Part shown: piece after piece, positions 2,790 to 48,379 of the stretch
Numbering within the stretch: the first letter of the stretch is position 1
Layout of the letters: each line of letters begins with the position of its first letter
Assembly (NCBI RefSeq): GCF_025854275.1
Contig: NZ_CP107567.1
Span: 3,968,001 to 4,032,000 of the forward strand
Source: Streptomyces peucetius
GTDB taxonomy: Bacteria; Actinomycetota; Actinomycetes; Streptomycetales; Streptomycetaceae
Direction of reading: 5' to 3'
Length of the DNA: 64,000 bases
Program-made: the position numbers and the translations under genes
The notes under the pieces: model-generated
Told to the model about the DNA's origin: nothing
Database searches by the model: none
What the model saw: only the letters and a program-made list of their open reading frames with translations

Positions 2790-2843
2790 GGCGGTCCGGG
2801 GGTGGCCGGGACATCGACGACCGGGCCTGCCTGCGGATTCTCG

Positions 2844-2891
2844 TCGTCCACAAAGCTTGTCCACATACCTTGTCCACAGCGCTTGTCCACA
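2844..2891 (+). promoter_or_regulatory. Four DnaA boxes in tandem at exact 13-bp spacing
   Basis: Four same-strand nonamers begin at 2844 (TCGTCCACA), 2857, 2870 and 2883 (each TTGTCCACA). The starts are exactly 13 bp apart. TTGTCCACA is the preferred Streptomyces DnaA box. Weaker copies nearby are at 2908-2916 (minus, one mismatch), 2968-2976 (CCGTCCACA) and 2993-3001 (one mismatch). The whole pheA-serS gap (2790-3399) holds no convincing gene. Confidence 0.8.
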
Positions 2892-3140
2892 GGTGCGCTT
2901 CTCGACCTGGGGACAAGTCGACAACAGAACCCCACAGGGTCGACAAATCGCCTCACCTGCCCCACTTCCGTCCACAGGGCGACAGGCCGTACCTGTCCAC
3001 CCCATTCCATTGATCAACTCTTTGGGTGAGGAATTCTCACTCGGATGAGTGCGTAAGGCCGGTTTGATACAGGAATTCACCAGCCAGGAAGCGCCTTCCG
3101 GAATGATCTCTTCCGGAATCCACAGATCACTCACACAGGC

Positions 3141-3179
3141 TGTGGATAACTTTCCGGAGTGCCGGATCCCTGTGGACAA
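3141..3179 (-). promoter_or_regulatory. Two inverted DnaA boxes
   Basis: TGTGGATAA (3141-3149) and TGTGGACAA (3171-3179) are perfect DnaA boxes read on the minus strand, 30 bp apart. They face the tandem array about 250 bp to the left. Together they make a bipartite arrangement in the serS upstream region, but with no AT-rich unwinding element. Confidence 0.7.
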
Positions 3180-3399
3180 AGCCTTCTCTCCGGGCCTCGC
3201 ACCCGGAACCCGGCACTCAGGGCGAGACGGCCCATCCGCCCCTTTTCAGGGAAGTTGCCCGATTGTCCCGCACTGCCGGACGAGGGTTTACTTCCGCTCC
3301 CGGCACCTCTCCACCGGCTCCATATTTTTCACCAACCCCCACAATTAGGACGAAGTAACACGCAAGCAGAAAGGGAGTCGGCACCGGTAGCCTGGTGGG

Positions 3400-4677
3400 G
3401 TGATTGACCTTCGCCTGCTTCGTGAGGACCCAGACCGTGTTCGCGCCTCCCAGCGCGCCCGTGGAGAGGACGTCGGCCTCGTCGACGCCCTGCTCTCCGC
3501 CGACGAGCGGCGAAGGTCCTCGGGCCTCAGCTTCGACGAACTGCGCTCCGAGCAGAAGTCGCTCGGCAAGCTGATCCCCAAGGCCACCCCCGAAGAGCGG
3601 GCCGAGCTGCTCAAGAAGGCCGAGCAGCTCAAGGCCGACGTCAAGGCGGCCGAGGCCGAGCAGAACGACGCGGACGAAGAGACCCGTCGGCTGCTGCTCC
3701 AGCTCGGCAACATCGTGCACGAGGACGTCCCGGTCGGCGGCGAGGAGGACTTCGTCGTCCTCGAGACGCACGGCACGATCCGCGACTTCGGCGCGGAGGG
3801 CTTCACGCCCAAGGACCACCTGGAGCTCGGCGAGGCGCTGGGCGCCATCGACGTCGAGCGCGGCGCGAAGGTGTCCGGCTCCCGCTTCTACTACCTCACC
3901 GGCGTCGGCGCGCTCCTCGAGCTCGCCCTCGTCAACGCCGCGATCGCGCAGGCCACCGAGGCCGGCTTCGTCCCGATGCTGACCCCGGCGCTGGTCCGCC
4001 CCCGCGCGATGGAGGGCACCGGCTTCCTCGGCCAGGCCGCGGAGAACGTCTACCACCTCGAGAAGGACGACTACTACCTGGTCGGCACCTCCGAGGTCCC
4101 GCTCGCCGCGTACCACATGGACGAGATCCTCGACGCCGACAAGCTGCCGCTGCGGTACGCGGGCTTCTCGCCCTGCTTCCGCCGCGAGGCCGGTACCTAC
4201 GGCAAGGACACCCGCGGCATCTTCCGCGTCCACCAGTTCGACAAGGTCGAGATGTTCTCGTACGTCGCGCCGGACGACGCGGAGGCCGAGCACAAGCGGC
4301 TGCTGGAGTGGGAGAAGCAGTGGCTGACCGGCCTGGAGCTGCCGTTCCAGGTGATCGACGTGGCCACGGCCGACCTCGGTTCCTCGGCTTCGCGCAAGTA
4401 CGACTGCGAGGCGTGGATCCCGACCCAGGGCAAGTACCGCGAACTGACCTCCGCGTCGAACTGCGACAGCTTCCAGGCGCGCCGCCTGTCCGTGCGCATG
4501 CGCGACGGAAAGAAGGTGCAGCCGCTGGCGACGCTGAACGGCACCCTGTGCGCCGTGCCGCGCACCATCGTGGCCATCCTGGAGAACCACCAGCTGGCCG
4601 ACGGCTCGGTGCGGGTCCCCGAGGTGCTCCGTCCCTACCTGGGCGGCCGTGAAGTGCTGGAGCCGATCTCCAAGTGA
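3400..4677 (+). CDS. serS: Seryl-tRNA synthetase
   Basis: The 425-residue class II synthetase charges tRNA-Ser. The N-terminal 110 residues are charged and helical, the coiled-coil arm that grips the long variable arm of tRNA-Ser. The catalytic core has motif 2 ([21 protein letters not shown], about residues 260-280) and motif 3 ([18 protein letters not shown], about residues 378-395). The GTG start at 3400 opens with [11 protein letters not shown], the usual family N-terminus. No T-box leader is apparent. The stop overlaps the next start by 4 bp (GTGA), so translation is coupled to the HAD phosphatase. Confidence 0.97.
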
Positions 4678-13394: not shown

Positions 13395-13448
13395 TTGTCC
13401 ACAGGAACGTCAATTTCCCTGTGGATAAGACAAGTTGACTGTGGATCA
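13395..13448. promoter_or_regulatory. Cluster of three DnaA boxes upstream of kptA
   Basis: TTGTCCACA (13395-13403, plus), TGTGGATAA (13420-13428, minus) and TGTGGATCA (13440-13448, minus, one mismatch) lie within 54 bp in the 127-bp gap between the MerR and kptA genes. Confidence 0.6.
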
Positions 13449-32674: not shown

Positions 32675-34586
<1,912 letters not shown>

Positions 34587-34664
34587 TGCAAAGGTGCCAC
34601 CACGCTAGCGTCATGTCTGGCGCGCTGAACAGAGGGCCCCTCCTGCTCTTGCGATGATCGGTCC

Positions 34665-39850: not shown

Positions 39851-39927
39851 AACGCACGAGACGCGCCTCCCGCGTGGAACACGCGGCCACGGACAGCGGT
39901 ACGGCCCACCGCCGCGTCACGTGCGAC

Positions 39928-39966
39928 GGGCGGTCCGAGCCTCCCCCCTCATGACTCGGACCGCCC
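39928..39966. terminator. Terminator after the PLP lyase
   Basis: GGGCGGTCCGAG (39928-39939) pairs perfectly with CTCGGACCGCCC (39955-39966) around a 15-nt loop. Confidence 0.7.
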
Positions 39967-40107
39967 CGGTTCCCGTGCACCAAGAACCGTGCCGACAAGG
40001 CTAGTTGACTCAGCGTCAGTGTCCAATCACGGTAGCGACAGAGACCTATCGACTTATTTATAGTTGGCCGGGTTCGGGGGGCAACGTCGGATCGGGAAGG
40101 GCATGGC

Positions 40108-48290: not shown

Positions 48291-48379
48291 TTATCCACAG
48301 GGACTGTGGACCAAGGACCAGATGCTGTGGAGAAGTCTCCGCAACCTGTGCACGGACCGGGGGACAGCACTGTGGAAAA
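48291..48379. promoter_or_regulatory. DnaA-box-like cluster upstream of dnaB
   Basis: TTATCCACA (48291-48299, plus), TGTGGACCA (48305-48313), TGTGGAGAA (48326-48334) and TGTGGAAAA (48371-48379) on the minus strand, the last three with one mismatch each. The 438-bp gap between dnaB and the MATE gene has no other recognisable gene. Confidence 0.5.

Follow-up and report, generated by a model that had tools for sequence, protein, structure and literature searches.

What might a dense group of DnaA boxes be doing at a site that is not the replication origin? The question is raised by the gap between pheA and serS in Streptomyces peucetius, which lies in a window of 64,000 nucleotides (the whole stretch of DNA analysed; bases 3968001–4032000 of an 8.05-Mb single-contig genome). 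The gap is flanked on the left by pheA, encoding prephenate dehydratase (1854–2789, + strand; Pfam PDT and ACT), and on the right by serS, encoding seryl-tRNA synthetase (3400–4677, + strand; Pfam Seryl_tRNA_N and tRNA-synt_2b). An initial annotation, made from the sequence, had stated that this is not oriC and contains neither dnaA nor dnaN, which is right for the gap. The dnaA gene occupies genome positions 4050015–4051754 and the dnaA–dnaN gap 4051755–4052565; therefore, the pheA–serS array lies ~80 kb from oriC, with dnaA itself ~79 kb away. The perfect box TTRTCCACA occurs 61 times in the genome, against 15 occurrences of the reversed pattern. Five of these 61 boxes fall within a 323-bp stretch of the pheA–serS gap, forming the densest group in the genome, and 17 fall inside 3.971–4.100 Mb, which is 1.6% of the chromosome. 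At up to one mismatch, TTGTCCACA is matched 20 times in the window versus 6.3 expected, a count reached by none of 100 shuffles.

On the + strand, four boxes start 13 bp apart, three of them perfect, exactly as first described: the one-mismatch box TCGTCCACA (2844–2852), followed by TTGTCCACA at 2857–2865, at 2870–2878 (box B, 13 bp before A; mean majority base in the alignment of relatives, 0.818) and at 2883–2891 (box A, 0.997). They are faced on the − strand by box D, TTATCCACA (3141–3149; 0.982), and, 30 bp from D, by box E, TTGTCCACA (3171–3179; 0.841). Both facing boxes had been called perfect; E is, whereas D is of the E. coli type, one base off the Streptomyces box. Between 2883 and 3141, where three weaker boxes had been counted, there are actually one one-mismatch box and five two-mismatch boxes (at 2916, 2938, 2968, 2993 and 3116, scored against TTRTCCACA). 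Named elements of this interval are box C, TTGTCCCCA, with one mismatch and a box start at 2908, within the conserved block TGGGGACAAGTCGACA (2908–2923, − strand); motif F, the conserved GGTCGACAAATC (2938–2949), which on the − strand is a two-mismatch DnaA box; the moderately conserved weak box G, CCGTCCACA (2968–2976, + strand; 0.707); and the weak box H, GAATCCACA (3116–3124, + strand), in which TCCACAG is conserved and whose distance to D is nearly fixed. The reported lack of an AT-rich element is true only in a relative sense, as 3000–3115 has a GC content of 51.7% versus 69.4% for the window. By base composition and alignment, 3010–3115 is an AT-richer, partly conserved spacer that separates two subclusters, and conservation is rather good over its part at 3010–3070 (mean majority base, 0.74). 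A conserved hairpin considered at 3032–3057 was rejected, the best stems being about as long as in shuffled sequences. Neither the AdpA motif (TGGCSNGWWY) nor an MtrA-like motif has an exact match in 2790–3400, and no Rfam family matches at gathering score inside the pheA–serS gap; elsewhere in the window, 39925–40050 (− strand) matches the Streptomyces small RNA Scr3920 with 125.9 bits. A further pair of facing perfect boxes, TTGTCCACA (+) and TTATCCACA (−), is found at 13395–13428, between MerR-type and KptA-type genes; its members are 25 bp apart, equal to the A–C spacing.

The layout was compared among relatives. A total of 222 serS loci were entered, 196 of which had pheA upstream, and 157 distinct pheA–serS gaps were kept after identical sequences, loci with serS identity below 79% and gaps outside 300–1000 bp had been dropped. 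One locus set consisted of the best 80 of 552 loci and thus leans to close relatives; in two 61-genome draws the serS gaps of G001 and G050 (first draw) and of G061 and G081 (second draw) were left out, and a class draw contributed 26 loci from 56 genomes outside the genus. The conserved core comprises A (2883), C (2908), GGTCGACAAATC (2938–2949), D (3141) and, less strictly, E (3171); that is, a + box, a facing box 23–25 bp on, and the facing boxes D and E ~260 bp on. The mean majority base is 0.96–0.997 in boxes A, C and D, against averages of 0.29 and 0.38 in the flanking spacers, and box A reads TTATCCACA in 137 of 149 gaps. The A–C spacing, sought at 22–26 bp, is 25 bp in 126 gaps, 24 in 13 and 23 in 10, with none found in 8 of the 157. 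For D–E, sought at 29–32 bp in 149 gaps, the spacing is 30 bp in 74, 31 in 42 and 29 or 32 in 3, with none found in 30; by alignment, it is 21–24 bp in 17 of the 157 gaps.

The four-box array itself fares differently. The scan of relatives bears out the core boxes, but the run of four is private to this genome: at least three boxes in a row occur nowhere else among the 157 gaps, itself included, and its nearest relative in the set (serS identity, 96%) has two. A second + box before A, assessed in the 149 gaps with A placed, stands at 13 bp in 75, at 12 bp in 28 and is absent in 46. The segment 2844–2865, holding the two extra copies at 2844 and 2857 that no other gap shares, is without counterpart in the alignment (mean majority base, 0.008). 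The initial emphasis on a strictly 13-bp-phased set of four boxes is thus not supported, and the run was rejected as a conserved unit. It probably arose recently by local tandem expansion, reinforcing the left half.

Within the genus, the cluster is conserved. When 2790–3200 was searched as DNA, 25 of 41 relatives gave matches: 24 of the 25 from the same genus (S. peucetius included) and, with a match of 22 bp, one from elsewhere in the class; the 15 from the same order gave none. In 138 of 297 family genomes, the 15-mer spanning box C is present, with no match to the reversed control; this number counts matches rather than confirmed loci. The match in G062 was rejected as another locus, with no pheA, serS or perfect box within the surrounding 7 kb. 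Farther out in the family, other genera have a rearranged cluster, often without C and with A–D at ~200–255 bp, out of register with 260. Among 12 loci with serS identity of at least 74% and no pheA in the 1.5 kb upstream, 6 are boxless at up to one mismatch, 1 has a single one-mismatch box, and 5 keep a cluster. In the class draw, 12 loci with pheA upstream lacked any box at up to one mismatch.

Comparison with oriC was made in the best 30 of 61 genomes, one of which (G021) offered too little sequence, leaving 29 to be read, and another (G050) no serS locus, so that 28 were compared. In every one of these 28, the pheA–serS gap exceeds oriC in perfect boxes (mean 3.04 versus 0.21); with position 3 left free, it still does so in 22, while 4 are tied and oriC leads in 2. 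Conversely, one-mismatch boxes are commoner in oriC (mean 11.5 versus 2.3), which carries 7–14 per gap. The S. peucetius dnaA–dnaN gap contains no perfect TTRTCCACA, nor do 24 of the 29 dnaA–dnaN gaps read. Spacing within oriC is nearly fixed across the 29 genomes, apart from a few 1-bp variants and variants of +10 bp at three places (in 10, 2 and 1 genomes); free variation is confined to the segment on the dnaN side. Streptomyces oriC thus shares with the pheA–serS cluster the box motif and a nearly fixed spacing with +10-bp variants, but differs in lying in the dnaA–dnaN gap and in having mostly imperfect boxes. The distance between serS and dnaA is 59–137 kb (median, 86 kb) in the 47 of 61 genomes with both genes on one contig, 12 genomes with separate contigs and 2 with the distance running across the record end being left out. 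The relative orientation of the two genes differs in 2 of these 47 (G012 and G037).

Loci of this kind have precedents. Smulczyk-Krawczyszyn and colleagues are said to have described, in 2006, three clusters around oriC of S. coelicolor (H24, H54 and D78), and such a cluster reportedly affects initiation negatively. In S. coelicolor, pheA is SCO3962, and cosmid D78 presumably carries its region. The pheA–serS cluster is probably the counterpart of D78: D78 is likewise a DnaA-box cluster close to oriC, while the four-box array of S. peucetius occurs in none of the other gaps among the 157. Three clusters are reported from S. coelicolor and three conserved ones were found here, an agreement that is suggestive only. 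Reviews describe box clusters near oriC of S. coelicolor as repressing untimely initiation in a datA-like manner (PMC10950094; PMC4585315; PMC5742627); in datA of E. coli itself, a long stretch separates the box groups (PMC5742627). The initial comparison with datA draws strength from these accounts, from the conserved site near oriC and from the strong boxes set against the weak ones of oriC. The pheA–serS locus is a box cluster outside oriC, not beside dnaA and dnaN, close to oriC at a conserved position, with an AT-richer, partly conserved spacer between its box groups (3010–3115). The likeness to datA, a non-coding box cluster near oriC with separated box groups, is one of layout. The oriC-proximal clusters of B. 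subtilis, which according to the same reviews repress untimely initiation (Okumura et al., 2012, as cited in PMC10950094, PMC4585315 and PMC5742627), are, by description, alike in place and in the putative repression.

The lengths between the two subclusters are distinctive. By alignment, the A–D distance is 256–261 bp in 93 of the 157 gaps, 268–274 in 35 and 278–282 in 17, with rarer values of 290–294 (3 gaps), 302 (1) and 312 (1), and seven shorter ones (185, 241, 248 and four at 250); no gap among the 157 falls at 262–267, 275–277 or 283–289 bp. The same groups emerge from box positions alone, with no alignment, in 119 gaps, and segments between anchors likewise change by ~10 or 20 bp. Length events were reconstructed with equal costs on a serS tree, i.e., a tree of one gene, and were counted as in phase when no more than 2 bp away from a multiple of 10.5, both this rule and the segment anchors having been chosen after the pattern was seen. 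The core shows 102 events of 1–3 bp, 51 of 4–26 bp (none at 4–6 or 14–18) and one larger, and of these 51, 47 deviate by at most 2 bp from 10.5 or 21. In the pheA-side spacer, only 14 of 37 are in phase (Fisher p 5e-8 against the core). Excluded from these counts were events above 26 bp, of which the core had 1, the pheA-side spacer 70 and the E–serS spacer 26. Under an earlier cost scheme that made small steps cheap, the pheA-side spacer appeared weakly phased (64 events of up to 60 bp; mean cosine 0.26, p ~0.01), against 0.79 for the core. The signal is less clean for whole A–D events (24 of 31 in phase) and absent from D–E changes (0 of 4). Among sister pairs, 18 of 78 differ in A–D by 4–60 bp, with a mean cosine of 0.42; the corresponding values are 0.06 on the pheA side and 0.43 for E–serS. 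The spacing under apparent evolutionary constraint is that between the subclusters, in steps of ~10–11 bp. A literature search covering few subscription journals returned no report of whole-turn length changes at such loci.

On the strength of these comparisons, we consider it likely, at a probability of roughly 0.7, that the locus is a conserved DnaA control site, the counterpart of D78, which would restrain oriC ~80 kb away as an ordered complex. DnaA would bind the facing left (A/B/C) and right (D/E) subclusters cooperatively and bridge them, closing a loop of ~235–260 bp with both subcomplexes on a fixed helical face. Such a complex would sequester, or inactivate, DnaA; because it lies near oriC, the locus would be duplicated soon after initiation, so that free DnaA would drop and the next round be delayed. 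Several properties of DnaA are in keeping with this scheme. A one-turn change between selected boxes of E. coli oriC is tolerated and a part-turn change is not (PMC4285127); a review describes weak binding of S. coelicolor DnaA to a single box; and for S. lividans it has been proposed that self-contacts of DnaA domain I and the long domain II link distant oriC box clusters (PMC13270200). A passive titration site, at which boxes act singly as a DnaA sink and geometry is irrelevant, could account for the perfect boxes in the gap and their scarcity in oriC, which is what a sink needs, and for a number of perfect boxes per gap that varies from 1 to 5. However, it leaves unexplained the fixed orientation, the near-fixed A–C and D–E spacings and the mostly whole-turn changes across a sequence-variable spacer, and we regard it as unlikely. 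Because length changes in the core are mostly whole turns (47 of 51, against 14 of 37), an ordered, probably looped, DnaA complex is favoured over such a sink.

The steps of 10–11 bp might instead reflect a mutational habit of Streptomyces spacer DNA rather than selection for helical phase. Phasing is indeed not exclusive to the core, since it extends to part of the serS-side spacer and recurs in one segment of an unrelated gap. Taken whole, the E-to-serS spacer shows partial phasing (42 of 60), and two of its segments, 3180–3216 and 3341–3384, are in phase at 23 of 31 and 21 of 26, mostly through changes of 10–12 bp; phasing may therefore reach the serS promoter. The pck gap, serving as a control in 30 loci, was not clean either, with steps of ~11–12 bp in one segment. 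The observation concerns 34469–34664 of the window, upstream of the gene at 32675–34468, where one segment has length classes ~12 bp apart. A control downstream of serS was unusable because the next gene is not conserved (5 of 80 loci). Against a general habit, phasing is absent from the pheA-side spacer and from the E–serS segments across 3216–3341 (30 of 70 in phase, p 1e-8 against the core, with three segments that were pooled once their values had been seen); in the dnaB–MATE gap, a box-free segment changes by ~23 and 35 bp; and the inserts differ in sequence, with no evident tandem copies by eye. We therefore judge this account distinctly improbable.

A third possibility, that DnaA acts at these boxes to regulate serS (or pheA) transcription, would suit their place upstream of serS and the partial phasing of the E-to-serS spacer. 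Nevertheless, the distance from the start of E to serS varies from 94 to 381 bp among the 119 gaps with D and E placed, and in S. peucetius 220 bp separate the end of the nearest box from the start codon. In 7 of 9 loci of one sister genus, an open frame of 307–352 codons intervenes between serS and the boxes, which stand ~0.9–1.4 kb away; the other two have the usual arrangement. Because the box layout is kept while the distance to serS varies, there is little likelihood of such control. A DARS-like site, promoting initiation by recharging DnaA with ATP, would also be a compact box cluster outside oriC. It is very improbable, as the S. coelicolor cluster, provided that it is the same locus, is described in reviews as repressing untimely initiation, i.e., as acting with the opposite sign (PMC4585315; PMC5742627).

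The putative control site at pheA–serS has companions, each followed in 30 of 61 genomes. A cluster in the divergent dnaB–MATE gap, ~35 kb from oriC (window 48291–48379), consists of a + box and − boxes at +14, +35 and +80; the latter two offsets are +35/+80 in 29 of 30 genomes and +46/+91, 11 bp longer, in the remaining one. The third cluster lies downstream of a rhomboid gene, ~18 kb beyond oriC (genome 4070456–4070657; L229 7457–7658), and is present at 30 of 30 loci. Its two + boxes are 147–150 bp apart in 24 loci and 158, 159, 161, 161, 169 and 180 bp apart in the others, and these longer spacings are about whole turns longer in 6 of 30. A bolder proposal, which we advance tentatively and with more doubt than belief, is that the three clusters (at about −80, −35 and +18 kb) are all conserved and helix-phased, each fold into a fixed DnaA loop and jointly act as a brake that depends on geometry. 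Such a brake would be the actinobacterial equivalent of DnaA inactivation driven by datA, and these sites, not oriC, would hold the majority of perfect boxes in the origin region.

For Streptomyces, the occurrence of perfect boxes at pheA–serS and imperfect ones in oriC suggests that both evolve as one control system. Whether such a locus is a sponge or a structured machine becomes directly testable in this genus. Length changes in natural sequences, being mostly whole turns, speak for structure; on this basis, the locus is predicted to be broken by an insertion of 5 bp and to withstand one of 10 bp.
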